Of a stretch of 28,975 bases of DNA, positions 1,069 to 27,160 are shown piece by piece. Each line of letters starts with the position of its first letter. Position 1 is the first letter of the stretch. The stretch covers positions 1 to 28,975 of the IMG/VR virus record IMGVR_UViG_3300021140_000029; one strand, written 5' to 3'. The notes below the pieces were generated by a model, which was given only the letters and a program-made list of their open reading frames with translations, did not search any database and was not told the DNA's origin. The translations under genes were made by a program, and so were the position numbers. This DNA is from a virus.

Positions 1069-1070
1069 CA

Positions 1071-7006: not shown

Positions 7007-7036
7007 CCTATATTATTGAATGCCTAATAAGATGTT
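7007..7036 (-). promoter_or_regulatory. Putative phage late promoter, copy E
   Basis: On the minus strand TTTAACAT (AACA at 7036-7033) is followed 21 nt from its start by TAATATAGG (7015-7007), then T and the ATG at 7005. It belongs to the five-copy late motif. Its upstream box touches the T-tract of the preceding terminator, so transcription stops and restarts here. Confidence 0.6.
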
Positions 7037-7066
7037 AAAAAAAAGCCCCCATTTCTGAGGGCCTTT
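7036..7066 (-). terminator. Terminator after the tail tube-like gene
   Basis: Minus strand: AAAGGCCC (7066-7059) pairs with GGGCTTT (7048-7042) with one bulge. An 8-T run (7044-7037) follows. It lies about 19 nt after the stop at 7085. Its hairpin sequence closely resembles the terminator at 7638-7659. Confidence 0.75.
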
Positions 7067-7084
7067 AGATGTATATGGAGTTGA

Positions 7085-7621
7085 TTATTGTACTCCGATT
7101 GCCTGCAATTGTACAGGGGTCATGTTCACCTCGTATGCGAGGTACTCATTCTCAGCTACCAAAGTAACGGAATATTTAGAGCCATCAGCACGAGCTGTAC
7201 CTGAACCTTCACCTGTTGCAGAAACTTGCAAATAAGGGAAGTACCAGTATATTCCATTGGCATCCAAAATGATGGCAGTAAGGTACTGCTGTCCACCACC
7301 TAAGATTTTAATGGCACGAGATTTAGCAGCATCTCGTCGGTGAAACATTAGGTTAATTGTAGAGGTAACAAATGAGCTACCATTCACTAGGTCGATGTTA
7401 CTCTCCTCTGTGAAGTTGGAGGTATTTCGTCTAATGTAGAAATTTTGAAACAAGTTAACGCCAGCTAATGTGATACCTGTGATTGACCATCCAGCTCCTG
7501 CTGATGGATCTACAGGAGTGATTGAGGCAATCTCATCCTGTTGGTTAATCCAGATACCATAAATACCACCAGAGTTATTGTCGCATGATTTTACTATGTC
7601 TTCAAGAACTAAACAAGGCAT
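7085..7621 (-). CDS. Putative major tail (tail tube) protein
   Basis: A 178-aa, mostly beta protein (GIYGIWINQQDEIASIT, LFQNFYIRRNTSNF, KYSVTLVAENEYLAYEV near the C-terminus). It directly follows the major capsid gene and sits between two similar terminators, the setting expected of a strongly expressed virion protein. Size and beta content fit a siphophage tail tube subunit. I see no diagnostic motif, and another abundant structural protein is possible. In many siphophages the tube gene lies nearer the tape measure; here it lies next to the capsid. Confidence 0.5.
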   Translation of the reverse strand: MPCLVLEDIVKSCDNNSGGIYGIWINQQDEIASITPVDPSAGAGWSITGITLAGVNLFQNFYIRRNTSNFTEESNIDLVNGSSFVTSTINLMFHRRDAAKSRAIKILGGGQQYLTAIILDANGIYWYFPYLQVSATGEGSGTARADGSKYSVTLVAENEYLAYEVNMTPVQLQAIGVQ

Positions 7622-7659
7622 GATTTAAAGTATTAAAGAGCCCCCATTGCTGAGGGCTC
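7622..7659 (-). terminator. Terminator or attenuator after the major capsid gene
   Basis: Minus strand: a perfect 6-bp stem GAGCCC/GGGCTC (7659-7654 with 7643-7638) with a 10-nt loop, followed by a T-rich but broken tail. It lies 10 nt after the capsid stop and just before the next ATG. The tail is weaker than at 7036-7066, so it may stop only part of the transcripts and set the capsid-to-tail ratio. Confidence 0.65.
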
Positions 7660-7668
7660 GGTTATTAA

Positions 7669-8589
7669 TTATGAATAGAATACGATCTCTCCTGGGTTAA
7701 CGAAGTTGAAACCTACCTTCATGTTAGCACGAGTACGGATGTAAGGCTCAGCTACAGTATCAGCTAAGTTAACAGCACGCAAATCAGAGCTATCACCTTC
7801 AGCATCGAATGCGTAGATAAGGTTATCTTTCAAAGTCCATACAAAAGTGTTGTTAGACATCCCTGGACAAACTACGATTTTAACACCTAAGAAAGTTAAC
7901 GCTAGATCCTGAGTAATATACGCTTGAGTGTTACCAGATGCTACTCCTAATCGGTAGATGTTAACCAATTGAGTAGGCATATATAAACGTAGATCAGCAG
8001 TTCTAGTTGCAATAGTAGCAGGTAACAAAGCAAATGCAGCAGACAATGCAGCCTCAAGAGCTGTAAAGTTAGCGATTGCACCAGTACCTCCATTGATAAC
8101 ACCTGATCCAGGAGCTCCTAACAATTTCTCGTAACCATCACAAAGAGCTAAGGTAGGGTTACCACTAAGGGTATCACCTTGCCAACGGATTGACTCAAGA
8201 TCTCCATTGATTTTGTTTGCCATTTCTGACCAGTAGAAGCTCATGAATGAAGCCACAGAGAAATCTCCATTTGATCCTTTGCTCATTTGCAAAGAAAGGA
8301 AAGATTGCTCAAGGTCAAATTGACAAATCTGAGCCATTGCAGAAAGAGCGCATACGTCAATTTCTTTCGCATCTAGGTCATCAGTTGGAGCTGTAAAGGC
8401 ACAGCTAGAAGCCTGAAGGATGTTACCAAAAGTAACAGAGGCTAATTTAGTTTTGTACTTTACACCTGGAAGGGCACGGTAGTTATCAGCAGTATCCTCA
8501 GACAAATATGCCTTAGAATAGAATGCCTCAGGGTTAGCAGCCAATAAGGCTGTAGGGTCGATATTCAAATCGAATTTTAACTTTCTCAT
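7669..8589 (-). CDS. Major capsid protein (HK97-like)
   Basis: A 306-aa protein with the pattern of an HK97-fold capsid subunit. A helical N-terminal part (PTALLAANPEAFYSKAYLSED) comes first. A middle with a spine-helix-like stretch (FTALEAALSAAFALLP) is followed by an A-domain-like region (LRLYMPTQLVNIYRLG, FLGVKIVVCPGM). The C-terminal beta strand is MKVGFNFVNPGEIVFYS. It follows the XkdF-like protease-scaffold gene by 4 nt, the usual order. The start has an A-rich leader typical of highly expressed Bacteroidota genes, and a hairpin follows the stop. Confidence 0.85.
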   Translation of the reverse strand: MRKLKFDLNIDPTALLAANPEAFYSKAYLSEDTADNYRALPGVKYKTKLASVTFGNILQASSCAFTAPTDDLDAKEIDVCALSAMAQICQFDLEQSFLSLQMSKGSNGDFSVASFMSFYWSEMANKINGDLESIRWQGDTLSGNPTLALCDGYEKLLGAPGSGVINGGTGAIANFTALEAALSAAFALLPATIATRTADLRLYMPTQLVNIYRLGVASGNTQAYITQDLALTFLGVKIVVCPGMSNNTFVWTLKDNLIYAFDAEGDSSDLRAVNLADTVAEPYIRTRANMKVGFNFVNPGEIVFYS

Positions 8590-8593
8590 TTTG

Positions 8594-8992
8594 TTATTTG
8601 TTTATAAATTTATTTACGTTACTAAATCTTTGCTGTACGCTTAACGCTACAGCCTCAGCCATCTCCACTTCCTCCTCTTCCATCTCTGGAGTTAGAGCTT
8701 GATCCAATTGATTTTGAAGATCAGCAATCATAGCTACTAATGCATTTACCTGCTCTTCAATAGCTGGCTTAACAATTGCTAAAACTGCCTCAGCATCTAG
8801 CTCAGGATCTACGGCCATGGTTTCCTCTTCAGTTGTTTCAACTGTGGTTTCCTCTTCCACTACCGTATCCTCAAGAGCTACCTCCTCAGAGGCTTCTACT
8901 TTTTCGACTTCCTTAATCTCGATAACCTCTCCGTCTTTTACGACGTAGATTTTACCCTCGATTAGGTGCTCGCCATCGGGTAACTTGTTCAT
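8594..8992 (-). CDS. Nested scaffold protein from an internal start (predicted)
   Basis: In frame within the protease gene, the ATG at 8992 (Met193 of the full protein) begins MNKLPDGEHLIEGKIYVVKDG. This is exactly where the protease domain ends and the acidic scaffold begins; the product would be 132 aa. The 20 nt before it read AACAAATAAAAACCAAATAA, an A-rich leader like that of the capsid gene, although here it encodes a linker. Nested scaffolds inside protease genes are known from lambda (C and Nu3). That this start is used is an inference. Confidence 0.5.
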   Translation of the reverse strand: MNKLPDGEHLIEGKIYVVKDGEVIEIKEVEKVEASEEVALEDTVVEEETTVETTEEETMAVDPELDAEAVLAIVKPAIEEQVNALVAMIADLQNQLDQALTPEMEEEEVEMAEAVALSVQQRFSNVNKFINK

Positions 8993-9568
8993 GTTTATTT
9001 GGTTTTTATTTGTTTGCTCACTTAACTTCATGCCCAGATAACCTTCAATTGAGAAGCCTATCTGCTCCTCACTTACTAGCTCTGCATAATATTCCTTATC
9101 CGTTACCTGTGCCGTTACCATCAATGTACCTTCTGGCACCTCGATACCAAAAGAGCTGTATGCTTTATCCTTCTTTGGGTTCTCAACTATCCAGGCCTCA
9201 AGCACATAGGCAGGGACTGTTTTCTCAGTATCATGCTCTAGATTGAATAGGTCTCTATTGACCATATCCCTCATGAATTTGCCGTGGATATTCTCAATCT
9301 CCTCTTTTGTAAATTGAACAAAGTACTCCTGTTTGGCATCATCATCATAGCGATATATATCCATAGGGATTAATGCCGGGGCCGTGATGCGGTACTTTAG
9401 TTCATCTGAAAAAAACATTGGCTTAGCTTCACTTGAGAAGGCCATCCCTTTCACCTTAATGGCAGGATTTGCCGTGAATGCTATCTGTTCAATTCCTAGA
9501 TCCTCACCATTTTCAGCATAGGCTGGGTCAATGGTAATCTTATAAGTAGGGATATTTTTTTCTGCCAT
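8594..9568 (-). CDS. Prohead protease (XkdF-like) fused to a scaffold domain
   Basis: A 324-aa protein. Residues 50-180 match the XkdF-like serine protease pattern: YRITAPALIPMDIYRYD (59-75), YFVQFTKEEIENI (82-94), NLEHD with His112, AWIVEN (125-130) and GFSIEGYLG with Ser173. Residues 193-324 form a separate acidic, Glu-rich, coiled-coil-like region (LDAEAVLAIVKPAIEEQVNALV) typical of a scaffold. The protease should process prohead proteins and remove the scaffold before DNA packaging. The gene starts 3 nt after a late motif (9572-9599) and is followed at once by the capsid gene. An internal ATG at 8992 may yield the scaffold alone. Confidence 0.82.
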   Translation of the reverse strand: MAEKNIPTYKITIDPAYAENGEDLGIEQIAFTANPAIKVKGMAFSSEAKPMFFSDELKYRITAPALIPMDIYRYDDDAKQEYFVQFTKEEIENIHGKFMRDMVNRDLFNLEHDTEKTVPAYVLEAWIVENPKKDKAYSSFGIEVPEGTLMVTAQVTDKEYYAELVSEEQIGFSIEGYLGMKLSEQTNKNQINMNKLPDGEHLIEGKIYVVKDGEVIEIKEVEKVEASEEVALEDTVVEEETTVETTEEETMAVDPELDAEAVLAIVKPAIEEQVNALVAMIADLQNQLDQALTPEMEEEEVEMAEAVALSVQQRFSNVNKFINK

Positions 9569-9571
9569 TTA

Positions 9572-9599
9572 CCTATATTAGAATTTTCTTATATTTGTT
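9572..9599 (-). promoter_or_regulatory. Putative phage late promoter, copy D
   Basis: Minus strand: AACA (9599-9596), then TAATATAGG (9580-9572) beginning 19 nt from its start, then TAA and the protease ATG at 9568. It sits in the 42-bp divergent gap between the protease-capsid unit and the plus-strand pair. Its upstream box overlaps the host-type -7 box for the plus strand (9590-9597). Confidence 0.6.
9590..9597 (+). promoter_or_regulatory. Host-type -7 box for the plus-strand gene pair
   Basis: TATATTTG matches TAnnTTTG, 13 nt before the ATG at 9611. No TTG lies at the expected distance upstream (TTT is there), so the promoter is probably weak or needs help. Confidence 0.45.
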
Positions 9600-9610
9600 A
9601 AAAAAAAATT

Positions 9611-10165
9611 ATGATAACAATTTTAGGGAAAGAGATCCCAAACCAAATGAAAGAGCTCACCATTGAGCAGTTTGAAATGATCACAGAGATCAATAACAAT
9701 AAGGACCTGGATGCCGTTGATAAGCACCTTAAAATCTTTGAATATCTAGGAATCCCTGAGAAGGATTTTTGGGATGTGGATATCTCAGATTTTATCGAGA
9801 TGGTAAAGGCCTTCAATAGCCTGGATAAAAACATTGACTATCCTACCATTGATACTATCGAGATAGATGGTTACACCTATACGGCTCAGATGAAGTTAAC
9901 CGTAAGGGATACTAAGCACATCGAGAAGCTGGCAATAGATAAGCCGAAAAACTACATCAGCCAAATGATGGCCGTGATGTTTAAACGTGAGGATCTTACT
10001 CCTGCTGAACACTACGCAGAGGCCCACATTAAACACAAAGCTAAATTCATTTGCAAAATGAGTGCGGATATTTCTATCCCTTATGTGATGTACATAGCTA
10101 ATAAAGTTAACCAACAATTTAAGAATGCTGAAGCTACCCCAGAGCTGGAGCCAAGTAACGCTTGA
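9611..10165 (+). CDS. Putative tail assembly chaperone-like protein A
   Basis: A 184-aa acidic, helical protein (MKELTIEQFEMITEINNNKD near the N-terminus, DISDFIEMVKAF and KLTVRDTKHIEKLAI in the middle). It is one of only two plus-strand genes. Its start resembles that of its neighbour (LTIEQFEMITEI against VTLEQFIEISKI), so the two may be related. Overlapping acidic helical pairs of this kind often serve as tail assembly chaperones that coat the tape measure. The overlap with the next frame is 41 bp, in the +1/-2 register. The function is inferred from character and context only. Confidence 0.5.
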   Translation: MITILGKEIPNQMKELTIEQFEMITEINNNKDLDAVDKHLKIFEYLGIPEKDFWDVDISDFIEMVKAFNSLDKNIDYPTIDTIEIDGYTYTAQMKLTVRDTKHIEKLAIDKPKNYISQMMAVMFKREDLTPAEHYAEAHIKHKAKFICKMSADISIPYVMYIANKVNQQFKNAEATPELEPSNA

Positions 10166-10865
10166 GCAGTTCATCGAGATCAGTAAAATTGATAAAACGC
10201 AAGGGGCCTACCACTACAATAGTGAGGCCCTTTCTATTTTAGCCGATGTTAATATCGAGGTTATTGAGGAGCTCGAGATTGATGAGCTCAATGCCTTAAT
10301 TAAGCAGGTCAATTGGTATAGCCATCAGCCACCCAATAGATACCAGGATGAGGTCCTGGGGTTGAAGCTCAAGGCCTTCAGTAAACTAGAGCTTTATGAG
10401 TGGATTGATCTGGAGTATCTATTCACTAATGACTATGTGGATAACCTGGATAAGATTTGTGCTATCCTGTACAGGAAAACTAAGTTAAACGAATGGCAGG
10501 AGGAGGTAATGGAGCCGTATGATTTTGACCTTAACAATAGAGCTGAACAGTTCCTGGACCTACCCATCACAGATATCTATGGTATCATTAATGAGTTCAT
10601 AAAGTTCCGTAAGCACTTTTACGAAACGTACAAAAATTTATTTGGAGATGTGGATGATACGGATCTATCTGAGGAAGAGAAAGCAAAGCTAACTAAGGAG
10701 GAGCTCGATGAAATTGAAGCGGAAAAGAAAGCCTCTAAATGGTCCTGGGAGCAAATGATTTACAGCCTATGCAATGGTGATTTGACTAAGGCAGAAAAAC
10801 TAGGCAAGCTAAAACTTACTTTTGTATTTAATATGATCGGGATGAAAAAGGAGTTAAACATCTAG
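10125..10865 (+). CDS. Putative tail assembly chaperone-like protein B
   Basis: A 246-aa, strongly acidic helical protein. The N-terminus is MLKLPQSWSQVTLEQFIEI, and a Glu/Asp-rich section follows (DLSEEEKAKLTKEELDEIEAEKKA). It starts inside the end of gene A and ends in a 12-bp tail-to-tail overlap with the minus-strand gene at 10854. It may be translated from its own ATG or, less likely, by +1 or -2 slippage from gene A, since its frame is open from 10098. It resembles gene A at the N-terminus. A tail chaperone role is inferred. Confidence 0.5.
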   Translation: MLKLPQSWSQVTLEQFIEISKIDKTQGAYHYNSEALSILADVNIEVIEELEIDELNALIKQVNWYSHQPPNRYQDEVLGLKLKAFSKLELYEWIDLEYLFTNDYVDNLDKICAILYRKTKLNEWQEEVMEPYDFDLNNRAEQFLDLPITDIYGIINEFIKFRKHFYETYKNLFGDVDDTDLSEEEKAKLTKEELDEIEAEKKASKWSWEQMIYSLCNGDLTKAEKLGKLKLTFVFNMIGMKKELNI

Positions 10866-11306
10866 CGGAAAGCCTGGAGTGAAATCAGGCGGTGCATCTA
10901 GTGCGTAGAAGTTATACACAATGCTTTGCTCCTCTTCTAAGATAGGCACTATCTCTAGTATGGGGTAATTTTTTGTGAGCCATTCAGTATATTGGCTGTA
11001 TATTTCTGTTATTATTCCTGCACTTGTTAGCTCATCGGTAAATTGGCGAACCAAATTATAAGGAGGTATTACCCCTCCATTCCAAAGGAAAGCCCCATTG
11101 TTTAGAAATATAAAGTAATACATCGCCACGATCTCAATCTCAAGGGTACTGAAGCCTGTTATTTGTGCATTAATTCGTACACTATCCTCCAAAGTACGGG
11201 TATCTACTAGGCCGTTCTGCCTAATAATCCTTTTTAAAATTGTAGCCATCCTTCTCCTGGTAGGATAAAGGATGTTAAATACTCCGTTTTTTGCGTATCT
11301 AGGCAT
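10854..11306 (-). CDS. Putative tail completion or neck protein
   Basis: A 150-aa protein beginning MPRYAKNGVFNILYPTRRRMATILKRIIRQ, with a helix and then a mixed alpha/beta body (TRTLEDSVRINAQITGFSTLEIEIV, FIFLNNGAFLWNGGVI). This layout resembles head-tail joining or HK97 gp10-like tail completion proteins, but I see no firm motif. It is the last gene of the tail fibre block and converges with the plus-strand pair, overlapping it by 12 bp. No terminator is visible between them. Confidence 0.45.
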   Translation of the reverse strand: MPRYAKNGVFNILYPTRRRMATILKRIIRQNGLVDTRTLEDSVRINAQITGFSTLEIEIVAMYYFIFLNNGAFLWNGGVIPPYNLVRQFTDELTSAGIITEIYSQYTEWLTKNYPILEIVPILEEEQSIVYNFYALDAPPDFTPGFPLDV

Positions 11307-11442
11307 TGATTAATTCTTTATATATATCCATTGTATCATCTATTAGAATTATACCCTTGTCAGTTTCTACATGTAGCTGTGTATCACTCACTACCTCAAT
11401 AGGCCCTGTGATTGTGTACTCTATTCCATTGTAATTAAACAT
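11299..11442 (-). CDS. Small protein, 47 aa, between tail fibre and tail completion genes
   Basis: The frame from ATG 11442 to TAG 11299 encodes 47 residues beginning MFNYNGIEYTITGPIEVV and ending MDIYKELINA. It fills an otherwise empty 128-bp gap and overlaps both neighbours by 8 bp, the spacing used throughout this genome. It looks like a compact beta protein with a final helix. I do not recognise the family; a minor tail or assembly role is possible from its place. Confidence 0.55.
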   Translation of the reverse strand: MFNYNGIEYTITGPIEVVSDTQLHVETDKGIILIDDTMDIYKELINA

Positions 11443-12796
11443 ATGCAAATACTTTGAATAGATCTATGTTAGCAATATCAGCAGCGTTCTGTGCTTGCAT
11501 TGTAAACAAGATATATTGGTTAACTGTTCTATTGAATGCAGTGGTTTGAATGTTACCGGTAGTATATTCGGAGAATGTAGTACCTACCATTGTCCTAAGA
11601 CTTGTGCCATCATAGCTATAGTTACGCTCGCAGTATCCTATAAACTGAGTACCTCCACCATTCATTGTAAAGATAGAGCTAATCAATGTGGCACCTGTTA
11701 AGCTGTTGGTAGTGTTGGTATATATTCTACCATACATCTGCCCGATATTACCTGATTGTCTATACATCCTGAATACTAACTGCAGGATATTGTTGCTGTT
11801 TAATGTATTGGCAGGGATGAGTAATGAGTGACATATAGTAACTGCGGTACCTGTAGTTGGAGTACCTAGTATTCCACTATATCCCATTAGCCTGGGCCCG
11901 ATGTTTAAATTACCACTACCTAGCAGTGAGTTGTTGTTCACTGTCTTAATGTTAGTGCCTGATACCAATGCATCCTGCTTGTTATTAAACGTACTCCAAT
12001 CGGTTGTGCTCAATGCTCCTCTAGTTAATGCTGAAGCTGTGGGTAGATTAAATTGATGGTCAATACCTGAGGATACTACATTGAAATCAGAGCCTGCTGT
12101 ACCTGTGCTAATGGTCTGAACATCTGCACTCAATCCATTCAGTGCAGTCATGCCTGTACCTGCTATGATACCTGCTTGTTGTGTTACGGTGAAGATAGCA
12201 GATGCTGTTGCAGGAGGAGGGCTACCTGCAGGATAGAACTCCATGGTAACATCCAAGCTCGTAGCACTCCAATACAGCTCGTAGTAATCACCGCCTACTG
12301 CATCAAGTATGTAATTCCATGATGTTATAACATGACCTGGACCACCACCATGTGAAGATACCACAGCAACAAATCCTGCACTACCATCTACATCAACCCC
12401 ATTCTTTCTAAGCCATATAGTTACATCCTGAGTCTTGACATCTATGTTTTGATATTGAAAAGAAAATTGCAGGTTATATATCCCTGTGTTAGCTATGGTT
12501 ATTTCAGTGTCATTCACTACAGTTACCCCATTACTTAAGTCCATAGTCCTGAACTTAGTAGGTTGCCCTACATTCACTGCAACCAATGGCTGAGTAATAT
12601 CATCCTGGTATTGTGCATAGTAACCTACTGCACCACCACCACCTGCTGCATTGATTATCTGCTGGCCTGTGATGGCTGTATTAATAGGTTGCCCTGCTAC
12701 TATCTGAGTGCATTCGATTAGGTCAGTAGGTTGCAGGTCGCCATTATGTGGATCTAGCTGAGGTCGCCAATCACCCCACCATTTAGGTAATGTCAT
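11435..12796 (-). CDS. Tail fibre or receptor-binding protein with C1q-like middle domain
   Basis: A 453-aa protein. The N-terminus (MTLPKWWGDWRPQLDP) is probably the part attached to the tail. Residues about 58-205 look like a C1q/TNF-type jelly roll (TGIYNLQFSFQYQN, VTIWLRKNGVDVDG). Then comes fibre-type sequence (TRGALSTTDWSTFNNKQDA, VNNNSLLGSGNLNIG) seen in many phage fibres, followed by a C-terminal beta domain rich in Thr, Asn and Gly. It should form trimers and bind the cell surface. Its ATG follows a late motif by one base, so it starts its own block. Confidence 0.72.
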   Translation of the reverse strand: MTLPKWWGDWRPQLDPHNGDLQPTDLIECTQIVAGQPINTAITGQQIINAAGGGGAVGYYAQYQDDITQPLVAVNVGQPTKFRTMDLSNGVTVVNDTEITIANTGIYNLQFSFQYQNIDVKTQDVTIWLRKNGVDVDGSAGFVAVVSSHGGGPGHVITSWNYILDAVGGDYYELYWSATSLDVTMEFYPAGSPPPATASAIFTVTQQAGIIAGTGMTALNGLSADVQTISTGTAGSDFNVVSSGIDHQFNLPTASALTRGALSTTDWSTFNNKQDALVSGTNIKTVNNNSLLGSGNLNIGPRLMGYSGILGTPTTGTAVTICHSLLIPANTLNSNNILQLVFRMYRQSGNIGQMYGRIYTNTTNSLTGATLISSIFTMNGGGTQFIGYCERNYSYDGTSLRTMVGTTFSEYTTGNIQTTAFNRTVNQYILFTMQAQNAADIANIDLFKVFAYV

Positions 12797-12797
12797 A

Positions 12798-12826
12798 CCT
12801 ATATTACATTAACCAGGGCAAATGTT
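12798..12826 (-). promoter_or_regulatory. Putative phage late promoter, copy C
   Basis: Minus strand: TTTAAACAT (AACA at 12826-12823), then TAATATAGG (12806-12798) beginning 20 nt from the AACA start, then T and the ATG at 12796. The whole block resembles that at 19897-19925, including CCTGG in the spacer. Confidence 0.65.
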
Positions 12827-13260
12827 TAAATCGGTACAGCGCAATCTGTCCAATCATTGAGTGCAAAGGTAATACTCATCTGATATCCTGCCGCATAATC
12901 TAGTAAATCATTATTCAATGGGGTAAAGGTAGGCACCCCGATAACATCCATGCTTCGATCTAAACCAAAGAAATAATATACATACAAATCATTTAAAATC
13001 TGATGGCAATCACTTAGGATGGTTATGATGTTAGCCCTGTCCTTTTGTATGATATCATAGCAGAATATATCCAGGGTAAATTCTGTAGTGTTTTCTGTAG
13101 GGATAACAGCATCAGGCACAATAAAAATGATAGGGTATTTTTCATCCTGGGTAGCAAAGTTAAATATCTGCTCTCTAAAATCAGTACCTACTTTCTTTAC
13201 CTGTTTGTGCTGTGAATAGAAGTTCACCACATTGTTAATTACGCTCTGTAAACTTATCAT
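12826..13260 (-). CDS. Hypothetical tail protein after the tape measure, 144 aa
   Basis: The protein begins MISLQSVINNVVNFYSQHKQVK and continues with strands and helices (KYPIIFIVPDAVIP, TEFTLDIFCYDII, ANIITILSDCHQILNDLYVYYF). The size and the N-terminal helix followed by beta strands resemble tail terminator or tail completion proteins, but no motif is decisive. It is coupled to the tape measure stop by a 4-bp overlap (ATGA) and is the last gene of its block. Confidence 0.5.
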   Translation of the reverse strand: MISLQSVINNVVNFYSQHKQVKKVGTDFREQIFNFATQDEKYPIIFIVPDAVIPTENTTEFTLDIFCYDIIQKDRANIITILSDCHQILNDLYVYYFFGLDRSMDVIGVPTFTPLNNDLLDYAAGYQMSITFALNDWTDCAVPI

Positions 13261-15722: not shown

Positions 15723-18451
15723 TATGGATAGTATTTTATTTCAATTGTTGTATATGCTAGGTAGTTATCACTGAAGCCTACCCCTATCTGAGAAGTATCT
15801 ACATAGATGCTGTTATTAGCCGCCACATAGATGGCACTATATATCCCATCAAAATAGCTAGATCCTATCATTACCGTGATGCGGTCCTGTGGGATAGCAC
15901 CTAGATCCCATGCATCCAATGTGGCCTGGTATTGACCTACCCCTAAATAATTCCAGGTGATTTGACCAAAGGTATTTACTAGCTCAGTAGCTACTGGAGG
16001 AGTAGCTCCCGCCTGAAACAATACAGCAGTATAGGCATAGCATGCTGGCAATACTGGTAAGCCATTGTACCTGTTGTAAACTACTAGGTTGTCGGTATAG
16101 ATACCATCCTCAGATATTAGCTTGTTATCTGTTACCACTACGGTCTTGAGGCCCTCATTAACTACGTTACCCTTCCCCGTTATTACTCCATTAGAATTGC
16201 CAGGTATTACGTTTGCATTCGAGCTCCTATGATTGAATATAGTATTACTAGCTACATGGGCTATGGCCCCATTATTACCGTTGCCAATTGGAGGAGCTTC
16301 TCCAGGGATTGCTGTGCTCCCAGGTAATACGCTCATGAGATCAATCTCACTATCCACGCTGATGAGCTCTACCTGGGTTAGCTTGTTAGCATTGGCATCG
16401 TAATCAATTACCTTATTGATATTCCACCATGAGTTATCTATCCTTATCTTATCATTTAATTCTAGGCTCTGGATATCTGGCTCTTTTAAATCAAAGAAAG
16501 CCGTTAACATTTTGCCGTTATTAATCTGCCCCATTGTACGCCTCCAGTATTTGTTATACAGATTGTTATCTGTTAAGGTCAAAGGCTGGTAATAATAAAA
16601 GGAACAGATGGCAAAATTAAGGTCCCATGATGGGCTTAATGGATCATTGAAATGACCTACATACGGGTAGCTCGTTAGGTTAGTTGCACCAACACTACCG
16701 TAATCATAAATATTGAATGCAGCACAATTGGTGAGGCCTACCTCCGCTGTTGAATCGTAAAGTATACGGATATTAGTATCAGGCTGTGAGCCCATGATCT
16801 GAGGTACATACGCTCCGAAGGTAGTATCTATCACAGGGGTAGGGCTGAATAATACGGCCTTAGTAGTTACATCCTTTACATACTCATTGTCAAAAATCAC
16901 CTCAGCCTGTCCATAGATTTGATTAGTTGCATTGGTGTATATTACATTTGGATCATCCTTATCAGGTGCATAGGTGAGTATTACCTTTTTACTTGTTAGC
17001 TCTGGAAGAAATGATAAACTTTGTTCCTGGTCTTTGGCTAGTTTGTAGGTCCAGTCCACCTGCTTACCTGCATCATAGTAGTCATCTCTATGCACTAGGT
17101 TCAGCATATTAGGCTGGCTCTTATCCACCTCAGCGTAAAGGTTGAACATATTAAAGATGGCCTTAACGTAATCGGATTGCTTTATCTTTTTGGGTACATA
17201 ATCATTGACATCTAAGGTGCCACCCACAGCTACAATGTTACTACTAGGTGTAATGGTTATATCTGCTGAATTGATTGTTAAATCTAAGGTGTAAGGTATA
17301 GTGTAAAAACCACCACCTGTAAAAAAGAACGCCTGTACGTTCGTGGTTAATGCAGTAAGCTGAGGCAATAGCGTTGCATCTGTTGCTTGTATGCTAACCA
17401 GTAAAGTATCTACTGCCACATTATAAGTACCTGCACCTAGCACTCCTGTTAATCCATTGTATAATGGGGAGGATACGTTTACATTATAAGGTGCATTGAA
17501 AAAGTTAAGATAAAACTGAGGCGTCCCTACTGATACGTTCCCAGTTGGGAAGGTAACATCTAAGGAGAAATTAATCAGGATCTTTATCTCATAGTATTGG
17601 CTATTGGCTGAGTTAATATTGAATGGTGTAGTATATACCCCAGTCAATGGATTGAATAAGTTTTGAGGATCCTCCAGCTCTGTTAAACCTGTGAATGTAT
17701 ATACTGCCGTGGATGGTTGTAATGATAACGCTGAGGTAACTGTACTGGGTGTAGTTTTCTCAGCCCTTACTACATAATCAGCAAAATCAAAGTTATCGCT
17801 TCCACCATTGTACGGTATGATTAGTTTATCAAATTTCGTGGCACTTAATGTGGGCCAGTTGTACTGATACCCTGCATCGGCAAAGATACGATCCATGTAA
17901 ACCTTTGCAAATATAGCAGGCTTAAATTCATTGATCATATAGTTAGCATCTCCTGACATTGGAAGGAAATACTTAAAGCCATCCGTAACCGTATTGCCAA
18001 AGCGCATCTGGATATTGTTCGCATCAAAGGGATGGTTCAAATCCGTGAAATCTATATCTGTTAATTCCTTATTATTGATGGCCGTAAAGAAATCACCTTT
18101 ACTATCCCTTACTAATACCTCATACTCAACGTGCTCCTCATAGCCATCCGTGAGCTGTACCTTTTTAACTGATGTTAACTGTAGCACAGCATCCTCCATT
18201 ATAGGGATACCATCCTGAATAACTGAGCAGGTTGTAAGGGTATTGATATTGAAGGTGCCTGCCTCAATGTTTACATCATAGTAATGGTTCAGCAAGTCAT
18301 TGTTATTCTTGCTCCCTACCAAAGTAATGGTCTTAGAGAAGTTACCCTTTCGCTGTGAGATATCTCTGATATCACCTACTTGAAAATTCAAAGGGAAAGC
18401 TGTGCCCTCCTTTACCTCCAGGTATCCTGTTGCTAGTTGTATCTTAACCAT
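15722..18451 (-). CDS. Large tail tip protein (Bacteroidota-type)
   Basis: The largest gene, 909 aa. The N-terminus (LEVKEGTAFPLNFQVGDI, RKGNFSKTITLVGSKNNNDLL) is typical of large tail proteins of Bacteroidota phages that follow the distal tail gene. The middle is beta-rich and Thr/Asn/Val-rich. A region near residues 410-500 (YVPKKIKQSDYVKAIFNMFNLYAEVDKSQPN) resembles hub or tail-associated modules. It probably forms the tail tip or hub. The gene order (distal tail, this gene, tape measure, fibre) fits. No peptidase motif is seen. Confidence 0.6.
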   Translation of the reverse strand: MVKIQLATGYLEVKEGTAFPLNFQVGDIRDISQRKGNFSKTITLVGSKNNNDLLNHYYDVNIEAGTFNINTLTTCSVIQDGIPIMEDAVLQLTSVKKVQLTDGYEEHVEYEVLVRDSKGDFFTAINNKELTDIDFTDLNHPFDANNIQMRFGNTVTDGFKYFLPMSGDANYMINEFKPAIFAKVYMDRIFADAGYQYNWPTLSATKFDKLIIPYNGGSDNFDFADYVVRAEKTTPSTVTSALSLQPSTAVYTFTGLTELEDPQNLFNPLTGVYTTPFNINSANSQYYEIKILINFSLDVTFPTGNVSVGTPQFYLNFFNAPYNVNVSSPLYNGLTGVLGAGTYNVAVDTLLVSIQATDATLLPQLTALTTNVQAFFFTGGGFYTIPYTLDLTINSADITITPSSNIVAVGGTLDVNDYVPKKIKQSDYVKAIFNMFNLYAEVDKSQPNMLNLVHRDDYYDAGKQVDWTYKLAKDQEQSLSFLPELTSKKVILTYAPDKDDPNVIYTNATNQIYGQAEVIFDNEYVKDVTTKAVLFSPTPVIDTTFGAYVPQIMGSQPDTNIRILYDSTAEVGLTNCAAFNIYDYGSVGATNLTSYPYVGHFNDPLSPSWDLNFAICSFYYYQPLTLTDNNLYNKYWRRTMGQINNGKMLTAFFDLKEPDIQSLELNDKIRIDNSWWNINKVIDYDANANKLTQVELISVDSEIDLMSVLPGSTAIPGEAPPIGNGNNGAIAHVASNTIFNHRSSNANVIPGNSNGVITGKGNVVNEGLKTVVVTDNKLISEDGIYTDNLVVYNRYNGLPVLPACYAYTAVLFQAGATPPVATELVNTFGQITWNYLGVGQYQATLDAWDLGAIPQDRITVMIGSSYFDGIYSAIYVAANNSIYVDTSQIGVGFSDNYLAYTTIEIKYYP

Positions 18452-19895
18452 TGACTAGGTCATTATTGGCATACTTAATCGTAATGCTCTGGCGTATTAA
18501 ATTCTTGTTTCGTTTCTTGAATAGCTCATAGGATGAGGTGAGGATGTTACAGCTGATGTACTCAGTGCTCTGAGGTTGCTCGCAGTCTTCATCATCATAT
18601 ATAGCCTTTTTAATATAAGTTTCTGGTGAGCTGATGAGCTCAGAGAAATACTGGGCCATCTCTTCAGTCATCCAGTTGGTATTTAAATCGATGGTAGTAT
18701 CAGTACTTATATAGCTGTTCACATAGCCCTTATCCTGGGTATTGTAGGTCCAGTATTGACTAGATATGTATCCTTGCACATCCCTATTGAATTGCTCCCG
18801 TGTTACGTTACCTTTCTCATAGTAACGGCCTGTAAACGCAAAGCTACCCCATGATCCCATGCGATCTAGGAATAGGATGTGATACTCAATATCCCTTACC
18901 CTCCTATCTAGATATACCCTGTACTTTTGAGAGGTCTGAGTTCCGAGGTGCTCATAATAGAAATCATACCACTCAGTTCCTGGCTTAATCAATGGTGCTG
19001 AGCCTGCCACTACGTTGGTAGCTCCATGGTTATTAGGACCAACAGATATGCCTACAACGTGATCAGTAGCCGCCACATCCTTATCCAGGATATCCCCTAG
19101 ATTGTTTTCAAATACCATTCGATGGCTACCAGCAGGTGAGTTGTTCACGGCATCCATCCAGAGGTCCTGCGCTAGGGTAGCATAGTATCCATCCGTTGGT
19201 AATGTTGTTAGTAGCTTATCGGTTATATTATTGAGTAGGTAATCCTGGTAATTATAGGCAGGCCATTCTACCCATCGGATGGCACCATTGAATACATAGT
19301 TATTCTTATCCTGCCTCAAAGCTCGGTTAATGGTTCGCCTACCATCGGCATAGGTTATATCCCCGTTAATAGTTGCATCGGTTACCAATGACCAGGGGCT
19401 ATTGACTACCAGGTAACCAGGGCCCACTCCTATAACTGTTTGCAATCCTTCGAGATTAGGGTTGGCAATACCTCCATCCGATTGAGCTATATTAATCTGA
19501 TCACCTACCACAAAGCTATTGGCTACGTTTATCTGAACGTTCCCTGCATTGTTGGTAAGGTTAGCGAAGTATTGCACGATGGTGAGGTACTCCTCCCCTA
19601 CGGCCACATCATATTTATAATGGCTATTCGTTGCATCGTATACCGTGGTGTTGGCCAGCTCAAGGTCATAGCTCACCTTAGCCTGTAGTAACTTACTCAA
19701 GTCAATCTCACCATACCCGCTAACGTATTGAGGCAGTACCCGGTACTCTGCTATCTTATTAACCGTGCCACTCTCGTATATATCGAAAACAAATTTAAAA
19801 CCAGGGTTCCCTGAGTTCGTGGATGCGTAGATAAATTTAATAGGGTTATACGCTGGCATCAATGGATCTGCCTTAGCTATTAGTAGTATTGCCAT
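18444..19895 (-). CDS. Putative distal tail protein
   Basis: A 483-aa, beta-rich protein beginning MAILLIAKADPLMPAYNPIKFIYAS. Later stretches are YKYDVAVGEEYLTIVQYF, HILFLDRMGSWGSFAFTGRY and, at the C-terminus, LIRQSITIKYANN. It is the first gene after the terminase and lies before the large tail tip gene, the place of a distal tail or baseplate platform protein. The 'DRMGSWGSF' stretch is common in structural proteins of Bacteroidota phages. A late motif ends one base before its ATG. It overlaps the next gene by 8 bp. Confidence 0.55.
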   Translation of the reverse strand: MAILLIAKADPLMPAYNPIKFIYASTNSGNPGFKFVFDIYESGTVNKIAEYRVLPQYVSGYGEIDLSKLLQAKVSYDLELANTTVYDATNSHYKYDVAVGEEYLTIVQYFANLTNNAGNVQINVANSFVVGDQINIAQSDGGIANPNLEGLQTVIGVGPGYLVVNSPWSLVTDATINGDITYADGRRTINRALRQDKNNYVFNGAIRWVEWPAYNYQDYLLNNITDKLLTTLPTDGYYATLAQDLWMDAVNNSPAGSHRMVFENNLGDILDKDVAATDHVVGISVGPNNHGATNVVAGSAPLIKPGTEWYDFYYEHLGTQTSQKYRVYLDRRVRDIEYHILFLDRMGSWGSFAFTGRYYEKGNVTREQFNRDVQGYISSQYWTYNTQDKGYVNSYISTDTTIDLNTNWMTEEMAQYFSELISSPETYIKKAIYDDEDCEQPQSTEYISCNILTSSYELFKKRNKNLIRQSITIKYANNDLVNG

Positions 19896-19896
19896 G

Positions 19897-19925
19897 CCTA
19901 TATTATCCTATGCCAGGAAAATGTT
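19897..19925 (-). promoter_or_regulatory. Putative phage late promoter, copy B
   Basis: Minus strand: AAAAACATTTT (AACA at 19925-19922), then TAATATAGG (19905-19897) beginning 20 nt from the AACA start, then C and the ATG at 19895. It fills the gap between the large terminase stop (19927) and the distal tail gene. Confidence 0.65.
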
Positions 19926-19926
19926 T

Positions 19927-21075
19927 TTAAAACGCATAGTATGAATCATCCGTATAGTACTCCTGCCGTATGTGGGTAGTAGCATACCTCACAGCATCCA
20001 TTGCATCATCGAATAGCTTGACAGGTTCATCCGTTATGAAATCACCGATTTTCTTCCACTTGTAGTTTTCATACTCCCGTTTTAGATCCTTATGATCCTG
20101 GCAAAATACCCCAAATGTTTTAACGTTATCAATACCCTTCTTGACTACCTTGTTGGCATTCTGTACATCAAACCCTGCAATGTTCATTTCTTGTATGATC
20201 TCTGGACGTGAATAATCTGCCATGATTGTAACCGTTTGCTCTATCCCCATAGCCTGAAGCTTCTCGATTAGCATGGTAGTAGTTAGGTAGCTCTCATATA
20301 TCACAGGCTCGATGTATATATCATTATCACACCAATATACCCTCATGAGTGCCGTGGGGTGATTGTACCCAAAGTCCAGACCATACACATAGTTGACAAA
20401 CCTAGCAGGCCTATGTGATAGGAAGGTCCAGTTGCTGTATATGTTACTCTTGCTGATAGCCTTCTCACCTAGTGCATAGATCTGGTATAGTGCCTCATCG
20501 GTTCGCTTTAAATCCTCAATCTGTGCCCTGATGCTATTGGGTAGAAACGGGTTATCTCGGTACGTTGATTTGATTAGTATGCTCTCCTCCTTTGGAAGCT
20601 CATATAACCAGCTCGAGCTATCTGATGGGTTATAATCAAATATTAGCTTAAATTCAGTACGCATATTGAGCTGAGTAAAGTCATCGAAGTACAGCTCATT
20701 AGCTTCATTGCACCATGCTATATCTCGCTTCCTTCCCCTTATCTTCTGCTCATCATCCACGGAAAAAAATTCCACAATACTCCCATTAGAGAAAGTATAT
20801 ATATGCTCACTCTTGTTATGGCTATCCAGGCTATAAATACCCATCTCCTTAAGTATCTCTATGAAATCCCTTAGCACCGTTGCCCTCAATGCAGGGAAGG
20901 TCTTACGAATAATACTAACCACCTTCCCAGAATTCTGTAGGCAATAGATAACCATGAGCTGGCAGAGGCTGTAGGTCTTAGAGCTCCTGCTCCCTCCCTC
21001 GTTGATTATAAACCTATGTGGCCCACTCAGAGCCTCATAGTTCTTTTCAAATATTACCGTACTCTTTATCTCCAT
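19927..21075 (-). CDS. terL: Terminase large subunit
   Basis: A 382-aa protein, the DNA packaging motor. The ATPase domain has Walker A GGSRSSKT (27-34) and Walker B DIAWCNEA (118-125, catalytic Glu124). The RNase H-like nuclease domain has GLDFGYNHPTA (Asp233), IMADYS (Asp286) and LFDDAMDAVRYA (Asp355, Asp356 and Asp359). The family is Terminase_3/PBSX-like, slightly short but complete. Its start overlaps the preceding 56-aa frame by 29 bp. A late promoter follows its stop. Confidence 0.93.
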   Translation of the reverse strand: MEIKSTVIFEKNYEALSGPHRFIINEGGSRSSKTYSLCQLMVIYCLQNSGKVVSIIRKTFPALRATVLRDFIEILKEMGIYSLDSHNKSEHIYTFSNGSIVEFFSVDDEQKIRGRKRDIAWCNEANELYFDDFTQLNMRTEFKLIFDYNPSDSSSWLYELPKEESILIKSTYRDNPFLPNSIRAQIEDLKRTDEALYQIYALGEKAISKSNIYSNWTFLSHRPARFVNYVYGLDFGYNHPTALMRVYWCDNDIYIEPVIYESYLTTTMLIEKLQAMGIEQTVTIMADYSRPEIIQEMNIAGFDVQNANKVVKKGIDNVKTFGVFCQDHKDLKREYENYKWKKIGDFITDEPVKLFDDAMDAVRYATTHIRQEYYTDDSYYAF

Positions 21076-21217
21076 TAACTGCTATTTGGTAGGCATTCAT
21101 TAGCATGGCCACCTGCCTGCCATCAGTTGCCACGGCCCTTCTATCTATTCTCACCTGCACTCCCTTCATTTTATAGATGTATGCCTCCACCATTGAGCAC
21201 ATGATATCAATCTGCAT
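21047..21217 (-). CDS. Small protein, 56 aa, between the terminase subunits
   Basis: The frame from ATG 21217 to TGA 21047 fills the 131-bp gap between the two terminase genes. It overlaps the small subunit by 11 bp and the large subunit by 29 bp. It begins MQIDIMCSMVEAYIYKMKG and includes RIDRRAVATDGRQVAML. It looks helical and basic. In-frame ATGs at 21202 and 21193 are alternative starts. I do not recognise it; a helper role in packaging is possible from position alone. Confidence 0.5.
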   Translation of the reverse strand: MQIDIMCSMVEAYIYKMKGVQVRIDRRAVATDGRQVAMLMNAYQIAVNGDKEYGNI

Positions 21218-21545
21218 CTGGTCTCACAATGGTTACCTCTATCCCTGTAATTGATTGCTCAATGCTCTGGTCTATCTGTTGGACAGGGGATCCATAGGCA
21301 GAATCCATCAATGCCTTGTATGCCATTACATCCCCTTCTCTAGCTTTTTTTATTAAGGCTAAGGTAGCTAAATCCTCCTGGCTCATATTTTCGTTTTCGC
21401 CTGTTAAAGGGTTTTTTAAGTTCTGATTAACTTCTAACCAATACTTTGCTATTGTGCTTCTATTCTTTGCTCCTTTAGGTCTTCCGTTAGGATTTCCGCT
21501 TTCGCCTTTTTCCCATGCTGGTTTTAAATTGTCTTCTTTTGGCAT
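21207..21545 (-). CDS. Putative terminase small subunit (DUF5681-like)
   Basis: A 112-aa basic protein. Residues 7-30 (LKPAWEKGESGNPNGRPKGAKN) match the DUF5681 pattern common in phage proteins next to TerL. A helical segment follows (LATLALIKKAREGDVMAYKALMDSAYG), like the DNA-binding part of small terminases. It should recognise phage DNA and load TerL. The gene follows the methyltransferase gene by 20 bp. Confidence 0.7.
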   Translation of the reverse strand: MPKEDNLKPAWEKGESGNPNGRPKGAKNRSTIAKYWLEVNQNLKNPLTGENENMSQEDLATLALIKKAREGDVMAYKALMDSAYGSPVQQIDQSIEQSITGIEVTIVRPDAD

Positions 21546-21565
21546 AATCGGTGTTATTTCGGTGT

Positions 21566-22747
21566 TTATTTTAATTCAACTCCGTTCTTCTTAATAACTA
21601 AACTTGGGTCAAGTTTTTTCATACGGTCAACTATGACTTGGCAATACTTCGGGTCTAATTCCATACCGTAGCATTTGCGTTTAAGTTGATGAGAAGCTAC
21701 CATTGTAGAACCTGAACCGAGAAAGAAGTCAAGAATATAATCTCCTTTTTTACTACTATTGTTCAATGCCCTTGTTGGAAGTTCGATAGGCTTTTGAGTT
21801 GGATGAAATTCATTTTTTGATTCTCTATTAACATCCCATACTGTAACCTCATTTGTAGGACCGTACCAATACGGAGAATTTCCTTTCTTAAAACAATAAA
21901 AGCAAGGTTCGTGTTTTTGTTTATACTGAGCGGATAAAGCTCCAAACTGAGCTATATTTTTATTCCATATAATTTGACTGCGTATCTCAATACCATTATC
22001 CCATAAATGAGAAGCCATATCTGCGTAACCTGCAGCGTGCCATATATACATAGGTGCTTTATCCTTTGTAAATAGTATTATATTAGGTAAAACTTCTTGA
22101 TATATGTTCGTGTTTTTTTGGTCATTGTCAAGTTTAGTTCTTTTAGTCAAAGCTCCACCCTCGTAGTCTACACCATAAGGAGGGTCTGTAAATACCATAT
22201 CAGCCTTTTGTCCGTTCATCAGTTTTGCTACTTGGTCGCTATCAGTTGAATCCCCACAAAGCAAACGATGTTCTCCAATCTCAAATAAATCTCCTAATAC
22301 AATATCTGTTTCAATTCCACCTTCAGGCACATCAAACTCATCCTCTTCAGCTTCAAGTTCTTCTTGAACACTTAAATCAACTGGCAAATCCAATCCCCAC
22401 TCTTCAAGTTTATCTACTTCCCATTCATTCGCTAAACTATCCCAGTCCCACTCTCCGAATCCTACGTTATCTTTGATTAAAAATTCTGCCTTCTGTTCCT
22501 CAGTCCACTCATCTGCTAGTATAACTGGTATCTCTTTTAATCCTATCTCTTTGCAGGCTTTTAATCGCATATTTCCACCTAATACAACGTATTTACCATC
22601 AACGTCTGTAAAAACAATTAGAGGCCGTTTATTTAGCATATCAGGGAAATCCTGAATGCTTTTAACTAACTTCTTAAATTTATCATCCTTTATTATCCTA
22701 GGATTTTTGGGATTAGGTTTAACCTCGTTTATCTTTACTATCTGCAT
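21566..22747 (-). CDS. ParB-like nuclease domain fused to a DNA methyltransferase
   Basis: A 393-aa fusion. Residues 1-95 are ParB/Srx-like (VKINEVKPNPKNPRI, VVLGGNMRLKACKEIG). An acidic linker (about 128-145) follows. The methyltransferase has motif IV TDPPYG at 187-192 and motif I FFLGSGST at 341-348. This order (DPPY first) is that of beta-class N6-adenine or N4-cytosine enzymes. No partner restriction gene is present, so it probably modifies phage DNA for protection or regulation. It sits inside the packaging block, coupled to the 46-aa gene by a 10-bp overlap. The target site cannot be read. Confidence 0.85.
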   Translation of the reverse strand: MQIVKINEVKPNPKNPRIIKDDKFKKLVKSIQDFPDMLNKRPLIVFTDVDGKYVVLGGNMRLKACKEIGLKEIPVILADEWTEEQKAEFLIKDNVGFGEWDWDSLANEWEVDKLEEWGLDLPVDLSVQEELEAEEDEFDVPEGGIETDIVLGDLFEIGEHRLLCGDSTDSDQVAKLMNGQKADMVFTDPPYGVDYEGGALTKRTKLDNDQKNTNIYQEVLPNIILFTKDKAPMYIWHAAGYADMASHLWDNGIEIRSQIIWNKNIAQFGALSAQYKQKHEPCFYCFKKGNSPYWYGPTNEVTVWDVNRESKNEFHPTQKPIELPTRALNNSSKKGDYILDFFLGSGSTMVASHQLKRKCYGMELDPKYCQVIVDRMKKLDPSLVIKKNGVELK

Positions 22748-22878
22748 CCTTGCCCTTTATATATTTTTAAATAGTTCTTAGATCCCTTCAATTTAGATGA
22801 TTTGCACTTAGAATGAACCCCAGGCCGTTTCACCTTAGGCTTAGCAACGTGTATTTTAACATTAGTTTGCTTTGCCAT
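22738..22878 (-). CDS. Small basic protein, 46 aa
   Basis: The frame from ATG 22878 to TAG 22738 encodes a very basic peptide: MAKQTNVKIHVAKPKVKRP, then GVHSKCKSSKLKGSKNYLK and GQGCR. It fills the gap between the 156-aa protein and the methyltransferase, with overlaps of 17 and 10 bp. Similar 'KRPGVHxKxKxSKxKxSKNY' peptides occur in other tailed phages, from memory. It may bind nucleic acid or the capsid interior. The function is unknown. Confidence 0.65.
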   Translation of the reverse strand: MAKQTNVKIHVAKPKVKRPGVHSKCKSSKLKGSKNYLKIYKGQGCR

Positions 22879-23332
22879 CTCTAATCTGTTTTAGTTTTCT
22901 CGAAGCCCATTCAATACCTTCATCACCTCCCCAGGCTAACCACATGAGCCTACCGCATCCATCCCCTAGCTCACGTTGAGAGTTTTGCCGATGCCGTTCA
23001 AAGCCTGCCATTCTGGCGATTGTTTCCTCAGATAGGGGCCTACCTGCTGCTAGGTCATTGGCTCTTTTTTTCCCCACAGGGGTGCCACAGGATCCCCAGC
23101 CGTTTTCTTCAGCCCATCTTAGTGCTGTTTTGGCGTTATCAATTGCGGCCTTTGGGTAGTCGGTGTAACTATCCTGGAATGCCTTACGATATGCCCCAAC
23201 AGGCCCCTCGTAAATAGAAATACAAACTGCATACCTCTGATCTTCATCAGGGTACTTATCTAATGTTTCAGGATCACTCATACAGCGAGCGATGTACTGC
23301 TCTTCTGTTTCGTTAGCCTTCGGTTTTGGCAT
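22862..23332 (-). CDS. Conserved head-related phage protein, 156 aa
   Basis: The protein begins MPKPKANETEEQYIARCMSD and continues PDEDQRYAVC, a start known from phage head and protease proteins. The C-terminal part (EETIARMAGFERHRQNS, then GCGRLMWLAWGGDEGIEWA) is also typical of Bacteroidota phages. No catalytic motif is obvious. It probably acts in head assembly. It overlaps the upstream 66-aa gene by 20 bp. Confidence 0.6.
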   Translation of the reverse strand: MPKPKANETEEQYIARCMSDPETLDKYPDEDQRYAVCISIYEGPVGAYRKAFQDSYTDYPKAAIDNAKTALRWAEENGWGSCGTPVGKKRANDLAAGRPLSEETIARMAGFERHRQNSQRELGDGCGRLMWLAWGGDEGIEWASRKLKQIRDGKAN

Positions 23333-23513
23333 CCTCCACTCCTTTGTATTTCTTAGCTTTGGTATCCTCTACCTCAAAAAGGTAGCCTAAACCTACTGAA
23401 GAATAATACTCATGGTCTTGAGCCATTTCTTCAGTTACATAAATTGAGGTATCAAACCCCTTGCTGTTGTAGATAGTAACGTAACTACCTAGATGTTCAT
23501 TCTTGACTTTCAT
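23313..23513 (-). CDS. Conserved small phage protein, 66 aa
   Basis: A short acidic protein: MKVKNEHLGSYVTIYNSKG, then IYVTEEMAQDHEYYSSVG and LGYLFEVEDTK. The pattern resembles small proteins beside head or packaging genes, but I cannot give a function. Its ATG lies within the end of the 54-aa membrane gene (17-bp overlap), and it overlaps the next gene by 20 bp. Confidence 0.6.
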   Translation of the reverse strand: MKVKNEHLGSYVTIYNSKGFDTSIYVTEEMAQDHEYYSSVGLGYLFEVEDTKAKKYKGVEDAKTEG

Positions 23514-23661
23514 ATTCTGATGTTATTAGCCATGTATAATATAATAAAATCCATACGCCTGCCCCTTTGCTAGCCCATACATAGTTTTCCCAAATAAGAG
23601 ATAACCCCACTGAGAATGCCGTGAACATTGCTAGGATGCTAAATATTTGCGATGGCCTCAT
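23497..23661 (-). CDS. Small membrane protein, 54 aa, first gene of the late block
   Basis: The frame from ATG 23661 to TGA 23497 encodes 54 residues with two hydrophobic segments: FSILAMFTAFSVGLSLIW (about 7-24) and GVWILLYYTWLI (about 35-46). It starts within the last codons of the sigma-like gene (23-bp overlap). A late motif ends one base before its ATG. It fills an otherwise empty 125-bp gap. Its role is unknown. Confidence 0.6.
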   Translation of the reverse strand: MRPSQIFSILAMFTAFSVGLSLIWENYVWASKGAGVWILLYYTWLITSEYESQE

Positions 23662-24181
23662 ACCTATATTGTAATGAGTTTAGATTTTGTTTAATTTCTT
23701 TAATAAGATAGTGCGCTGAGGTAACGGTAATCCCGAAATACTTAGCCATTGCCCTGGCTGTGGTGTATCCTTTATCAATATATGCCTCAAATACAATTCG
23801 ATGCACGTTATCCTCTATCTGTGCCCGGTATATTTCAATGATTGCCTTCTGATGGCTGTACTGGATATCCTCCCGCACTTTATCCTTCAGGTCCTGCTCA
23901 TCCTCCACCTCATTATGTGGCCCATCAATTGCCGTGATGGCATCGTCTCGATGGCTTTTAGATGTGGTCCAGAGTATTTGGTATTTAATGGTATTTAAAA
24001 GGTAGCTCTTGACTATATCAATATCCTTCTGGGCCTCCTGGATACCTAACACATGAAGGTAACTGTTGTTAATTACCGTATCTGCCTCCATTGTGGATTT
24101 AGTACGCTGTAAAAAATACAACGTATAAGCTCTCACCTCCTGGTAATTCTCAGATATGTATTGATCTAAGAGCTTTTTCAT
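23639..24181 (-). CDS. Phage sigma-like factor (ECF-type)
   Basis: A 180-aa protein with the layout of an ECF sigma factor. A region 2-like helical part covers about residues 5-75 (ENYQEVRAYTLYFLQ, EADTVINNSYLHVL, KSYLLNTIKYQIL). An acidic linker (90-105) follows, and a region 4-like helix-turn-helix is at about 127-170 (RIVFEAYIDKGYTTARAMAKYFGITV, then SAHYLIKEIKQNL). It should direct host RNA polymerase to phage promoters. It is the last gene before the late region, and copy A of the late motif lies in its own 3' end. A plain regulator with a sigma-like HTH is the alternative. Confidence 0.7.
   Translation of the reverse strand: MKKLLDQYISENYQEVRAYTLYFLQRTKSTMEADTVINNSYLHVLGIQEAQKDIDIVKSYLLNTIKYQILWTTSKSHRDDAITAIDGPHNEVEDEQDLKDKVREDIQYSHQKAIIEIYRAQIEDNVHRIVFEAYIDKGYTTARAMAKYFGITVTSAHYLIKEIKQNLNSLQYRYEAIANI
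23663..23691 (-). promoter_or_regulatory. Putative phage late promoter, copy A
   Basis: Minus strand: TTAAACAAAA (AACA at 23691-23688), then CAATATAGG (23671-23663) beginning 20 nt from the AACA start, then T and the ATG at 23661. It lies inside the 3' end of the sigma-like gene and would start the packaging block. It differs from the other copies at the first base (C for T). Confidence 0.6.
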
Positions 24182-27128: not shown

Positions 27129-27160
27129 CAAAGATACAAAAATTTAATTACTATTTACAA
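27129..27160 (-). promoter_or_regulatory. Bacteroidota-type promoter for the recombination operon
   Basis: Minus strand: TTTG (27161-27158), 21 nt, then TATCTTTG (27136-27129), the same -7 sequence as at 2387-2394. Transcription would begin at about 27122, leaving a leader of about 15 nt before the ERF ATG at 27107. The spacer is longer than usual by two bases. Confidence 0.6.

Follow-up and report, generated by a model that had tools for sequence, protein, structure and literature searches.

A promoter-like element at five late gene blocks of an uncultured phage and its probable reading by a phage-encoded ECF-like sigma factor

What switches on the late genes of a virus in which one short two-part element stands at the head of block after block? 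The question is raised by IMG/VR record IMGVR_UViG_3300021140_000029, all 28,975 nucleotides of which were analysed and are referred to here as the window. It appears highly likely that the five copies of this element are late promoters, to which the host core RNA polymerase is directed by an ECF-like sigma factor that the phage itself encodes (gene 23639-24181). The phage would probably represent an uncultured, Bacteroidota-specific variant of the known control of late genes by phage sigma factors, one for which the comparative evidence is unusually strong.

The five-copy element and its surroundings

The minus strand of the window holds five exact copies of AACA-N15-17-[T/C]AATATAGG (P1-P5, Table 1), at the positions reported in a preliminary description; 0.02 matches are expected from 100 dinucleotide-preserving shuffles of the window, none of which (0/100) reaches five. 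The distances from AACA to the second box (20, 20, 20, 19, and 21 from P1 to P5) are also as reported there, and so is the placement of the copies 1-3 nt before the first genes of late blocks: the ATG follows the box by 1, 1, 1, 3, and 1 nt, with block-head starts at 23661, 19895, 12796, 9568, and 7005. Four copies read GG-N-ATG, and the protease copy (P4) reads GG-TAA-ATG. The two-part motif has no copy on the plus strand of the window; AATATAGG alone occurs seven times in the window, its two extra occurrences being on the plus strand and without AACA.

Table 1. Positions of the proposed late promoters, host-type boxes, and associated features in the window
Feature	Position	Strand	Remark
P1, late promoter (proposed), packaging block (gene 23497-23661 onward)	23663..23691	-	orthologous in 11/11 clade-1 genomes
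P2, late promoter (proposed), tail block (gene 18444-19895 onward)	19897..19925	-	directly 3' of terL stop codon
P3, late promoter (proposed), fibre gene 11435-12796	12798..12826	-	overlaps preceding stop codon
P4, late promoter (proposed), protease-capsid block (gene 8594-9568 onward)	9572..9599	-	divergent intergenic gap
P5, late promoter (proposed), gene 6655-7005, portal and lysis genes	7007..7036	-	directly after terminator
Intrinsic terminator, 11-pair hairpin and U run to 7037	7041..7066	-	immediately upstream of P5
Gene of the proposed reader of P1-P5, an ECF-like sigma factor of 180 aa	23639..24181	-	fold match; NCBIfam sigma70-ECF in relatives
Two small genes (24347-24595, 24150-24368)	24150..24595	-	upstream of / overlapping sigma gene (ORFs)
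Host-type box TATATTTG (proposed)	24601..24608	-	5 nt before ATG of 24347-24595, first gene of sigma operon
Host-type box TATATTTG for reversed genes 9611-10865	9590..9597	+	overlaps AACA end of P4
Host-type box TATCTTTG, early	27129..27136	-	upstream of ERF recombinase gene
Host-type box TAACTTTG, early	1039..1046	-	6 nt before helicase-like gene ATG

The hairpin before P5 was missed by a terminator scan and is supported by direct folding (-15.8 kcal/mol, z -3.4), and terminator-like sequence occurs at this position in all three clades of the family described below. The protease gene and the divergent genes 9611-10865 are separated by 42 nt, and P4 lies in this interval; its AACAAATATA end is at the same time the complement of the host-type box that serves the divergent genes, which is TATATTTG or, in clade 3, TATCTTTG; two polymerases would be expected to bind in this gap in a mutually exclusive manner. 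With a terminator before P5 and a restart at P4 after the inverted module, both sites are located as promoters should be. The divergent genes themselves are two overlapping plus-strand genes inverted within the late region, an inversion common to all three clades. Their products resemble each other by eye, and our guess is that they are tail-assembly chaperones. The packaging block of the window additionally contains a gene for a ParB-N and DNA methylase fusion (21566-22747, minus strand), which was not found there in the relatives compared.

P1 is encoded within the 3' end of the sigma gene, so that the DNA of P1 determines how the protein ends, namely in LQYRYE (23639-23691). In clades 1 and 2, the C-terminal QYRYE simply results from translating P1 (TTA CAA TAT AGG TAT GAG), whereas clade 3 has no P1 at that place and its protein lacks these residues. 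One candidate for a clade-3 P1, CAATATAGATATG at position 1373 of genome G044, was rejected: it looks like coding sequence, and its ATG is not conserved.

Conservation and concerted change among relatives

More than two hundred IMG/VR viral contigs encode a tblastn-confirmed relative of the sigma-like protein, the complete-looking ones being mostly 28-31 kb long. No relative was found by tblastn (E<=1) in 50,697 cultured-phage records, and the distant clade-3 sigma gave chance matches only when used as the query. A search of relatives for the motif, suggested in the preliminary description, revealed that it is retained at the same late-gene heads. All 30 longer relative records carry two to six copies of AACA-N13-19-[T/C]AATATAGG on one strand, with a single stray match on the opposite strand, and each of 11 whole clade-1 genomes has the same five orthologous sites. 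Among these 11 genomes, AACA is kept everywhere but at P4 of one subclade (TACA), and the box is altered by one base in one genome. A count over 146 distinct clade-1 sites, for which the box itself was a requirement for inclusion, gives 1.4-1.7 bits at the AAACA columns, 1.5-1.7 bits at the TA that follows the box, and less than 0.7 at most spacer positions. In 89/93 distinct clade-1 sites, the spacer measures 16 nt; it spans 16-17 nt in clade 2 and, ahead of GCAATATA, 15 nt in clade 3. Furthermore, when the 8-mers that precede start codons were counted without bias, pieces of each clade's own late box came out as the top words in all three clades.

The start codon is less rigidly fixed than the box. 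Some relatives use GTG instead of ATG at P5; the P4 context is TAAATG, TAGATG, TAATG, or TATG; and at P2, one subclade has its start codon approximately 10 nt further downstream, with the box unmoved and the protein start still aligned. Thus, the start codon is genuine and can shift, whereas the box and the next two bases (usually T, then A or G) stay. Motif and sigma gene were also compared in 50 other records with one pattern match, restricted to those of at least 23 kb: the sigma is encoded in 5/5 records with two or more motif copies, and the 21 that lack it carry no more than a single copy each. The five records represent one phage family, so shared ancestry limits the weight of this association. 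Near-identical single copies of a promoter-like match in the large contigs L094, L108, L111, and L120 were set aside, since, as read from the sequence, they look like the start of a gene on the opposite strand.

The two further clades, whose sigma is approximately 43-48% identical to that of the window, have the same late-gene order and the same inverted gene pair as clade 1, and nearly all copies of their block-head box read TACAATATAGG (clade 2) or TTGCAATATAA (clade 3). When 225 loci were counted on the coding versus the opposite strand, AACA with TAATATAGG gave 72:0 in clade 1, the TACAATATAGG form 141:0 in clade 2, and AACA with TGCAATATAA 33:0 in clade 3. The two-part forms were never found in the wrong clade, with the exception of P1, at which clade 1 has the TACAATATAGG form; no AACA can be recognised at P5 and at some P2 copies of clade 2. 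The separate sites of a genome have thus altered together, as would be predicted for one evolving trans-acting reader, and a switch that changes together with a protein between related phages ties the two to each other. The concerted change indicates one common reader; were the hosts of the clades different, a host factor would fit it too. In the divergent clade-3 phage G057 (L385, L386), CAACATA replaces CAATATA at P4 and P5 and not at the other two sites, possibly a box in transition.

The sigma-like protein and the proposed switch

The ECF-like protein reported earlier at 24181-23639 is predicted to have a fold with sigma2 and sigma4 domains. From its sequence alone, no confident Pfam or PHROG match and no Pfam sigma hit were obtained, E-values against sigma models reach only 0.02-0.05, and sequence-profile searches of the PDB returned no sigma factor. 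Weak matches to the ECF model TIGR02937 of NCBIfam were found in 16/31 relatives (best E 2.4e-4), and all single-sequence family matches of the sigma-like proteins are below curated cut-offs. AlphaFold models from two alignments contain two helical domains (approximately residues 2-73 and 95-179) joined by a low-confidence, disordered linker; a layout of sigma2, linker, and sigma4, with neither sigma1.1 nor sigma3, is thus seen at the level of fold only. Nearly all of the 50 best Foldseek matches in the PDB are sigma factors, with ECF SigH, SigL, AlgU, sigmaE, and RpoE prominent; the first is a chain of a 2025 RNA-guided transcription complex, presumably its sigma subunit. In a viral structure library, the fold matched phage proteins annotated as sigma factors, and the sigmas of Citrobacter CVT22, Salinivibrio CW02, and Cronobacter GAP52 were matched solely in the fold comparison. 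Given these modest E-values (best in the PDB only about 1e-3, with full-length TM-scores near 0.3-0.37), the modelled sigma fold is likely, not proven. ECF promoters are expected to have AAC in their -35 box, followed by a spacer of approximately 15-17 nt, and both features can be read in the AACA-N15-17-box pattern of P1-P5 and of relatives.

A plausible sequence of events can be proposed from these observations. Host polymerase would first read TAnnTTTG promoters, one of which stands before the operon whose last gene is that of the sigma. The two small genes and the sigma gene are proposed, from their adjacency, to form this early operon, and TAnnTTTG stands 4-8 nt before its start in 11/11 clade-1 genomes and, at a distance of 4 nt, in 4/5 clade-3 genomes as well. 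The new sigma would then turn on the packaging, tail, fibre, protease-capsid, and portal-lysis blocks, with AACA serving as a -35 element contacted by sigma4 and [T/C]AATATAGG as a -10 element and discriminator contacted by sigma2. That early genes have host-type boxes, as the preliminary description had it, holds for the helicase, ERF, and sigma-operon genes and for the reversed genes at 9611, and the boxes before the first three suggest a host-then-phage cascade. That the sites are promoters of the ECF-like protein, also proposed there, has gained support from the relatives, the fold, and the concerted box change; like the binding of the sigma to P1-P5, its timing, and the exact start sites, it is still something that we infer.

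Transcription would start at, or within approximately 3 nt of, the start codon, and start codons lie 1-17 nt, mostly 1 nt, after the box; most late mRNAs are therefore probably leaderless or nearly so, as judged from sequence. If the first base were the A of ATG, the box would occupy -10 to -2 and AACA -30 to -27; both elements of sigmaE promoters lie approximately 2-4 nt farther from the start than in that geometry. With the start codon 1 nt after the box, a -10 element and the first transcribed base would be unusually close to each other, and sigmaE-like spacing would put the transcription start just inside the gene. Either the sigma has a compact geometry or transcription starts at GG. In Flavobacterium johnsoniae, the start site lies 4-5 nt after the TAnnTTTG box and most mRNA leaders exceed 10 nt (PMC6847099); by the 4-5 nt yardstick, the sigma operon would be leaderless as well.

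Among alternative explanations, a late activator of the RinA/Ltr type might bind the element and recruit polymerase carrying the host sigma, with no replacement of sigma. A weak match to NCBIfam phage_rinA in 8/31 sigma relatives speaks for this reading, which we nevertheless regard as improbable. In Gram-positive phages, Ltr proteins have approximately 130 aa and act via repeats upstream of a host-type promoter (PMC13123087), one with a TATA box, whereas each of the five sites here has one bipartite promoter-like element with its own -35/-10 spacing and no direct repeats of the Ltr kind; P1, P2, P3, and P5 have no TAnnTTTG box, and the predicted fold spans two sigma domains, not sigma4 alone. 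Still less probable is that a host alternative sigma reads the sites and the phage sigma-like protein does something else. The concerted change is compatible with any shared reader, host factors of differing hosts among them; however, TAnnTTTG at the divergent gene of P4 persists across clades while the late box changes, every longer multi-copy record encodes the sigma, and no relative of it was confirmed in the bacterial genomes of the collection.

We attach hardly any credence to the idea that the motif is a translation-initiation or processing signal in mRNA rather than a promoter, which is suggested by a box that abuts the start codon at most copies. Against it, the motif is confined to block heads, and at P2 of one subclade the box has stayed in place with the start codon downstream. 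Two boxes separated by a spacer of drifting sequence and near-fixed length suit recognition of DNA, little upstream RNA would carry AACA at P5 because this site directly follows a terminator, and no Rfam family was matched. Control by the phage sigma remains the preferred reading of P1-P5. Two other candidates were rejected: a promoter for a single-subunit T7-type polymerase (a TATAGG lookalike), as box spacing varies and no such polymerase is among the proteins examined, and a disguised Bacteroidota -7 box, as there is no TTT core and the distance to the start codon is unlike the 4-5 nt of F. johnsoniae.

Known systems, the probable host, and the genome ends

In phage T4, gp55 acts as the late sigma at TATAAATA promoters, which have no -35 element and depend on the replication clamp; the likeness to the present system is that a phage sigma gives late promoters a -10-type box. 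Middle and late promoters are known for the sigma factors of phiEco32 (gp36) and phage 7-11 (PMC4331800). Here, too, an ECF-like phage sigma is accompanied by a short motif upstream of structural genes and by host promoters that drive early genes, and the phiEco32 box tAATGTATA resembles the TAATATAGG of clade 1. However, the host here is probably one of the Bacteroidota, the genome is approximately 29 kb, starts are probably nearly leaderless, and no homology to gp36-like proteins was detected (no tblastn match in the 50,697 phage records at E<=1). In phage ECF promoters of the phiEco32 type, the -10 is extended and a -35 cannot be discerned (PMC5333181), whereas AACA is conserved here. The primary promoter of Bacteroidota is TAnnTTTG (PMC6847099), which early genes use here and of which TAATATAG matches 4/6 fixed positions; the late box differs in lacking the TTT core, in having AACA upstream, and in ending nearer the start codon.

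Few cultured phages are known to control their late genes through a sigma of their own, and this family provides a large natural data set, with three clades, hundreds of contigs, and four or five promoters per genome. We would give roughly even chances to the broader view that sigma and promoters are a matched, evolving pair running a leaderless late programme, in which protein and promoter have shifted together in each clade. With a compact sigma and clade-specific boxes, sigma-promoter co-evolution becomes directly testable, and candidate promoter-sigma pairs distinct from the host box become available for Bacteroidota genetics. The mRNAs of Bacteroidota hosts mostly have leaders, whereas this late programme, if the proposal is true, is largely leaderless, and one may ask how hosts without Shine-Dalgarno sequences would translate late mRNAs of this leaderless kind.

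The host is probably a member of the Bacteroidota, as judged only from the TAnnTTTG boxes and the best matches of the terminase, which show approximately 32% identity and come mostly from Parabacteroides and Bacteroides phages. A sigma70 consensus scan gave fewer hits than in shuffles. The helicase-like gene runs off the window end and is split across both ends (1-1032 and 27596-28975); since it is intact in a relative (G001, 771 aa), the window is likely a near-complete genome that was opened from a circular map. Upstream of this gene, the repeats TTATCGTCA / TGACGATAA (1050-1170, minus strand) may constitute an origin or operator, and the gene beside them (1286-1738, minus strand) encodes a DnaA C-terminal DNA-binding domain (Bac_DnaA_C, E 2.7e-7).
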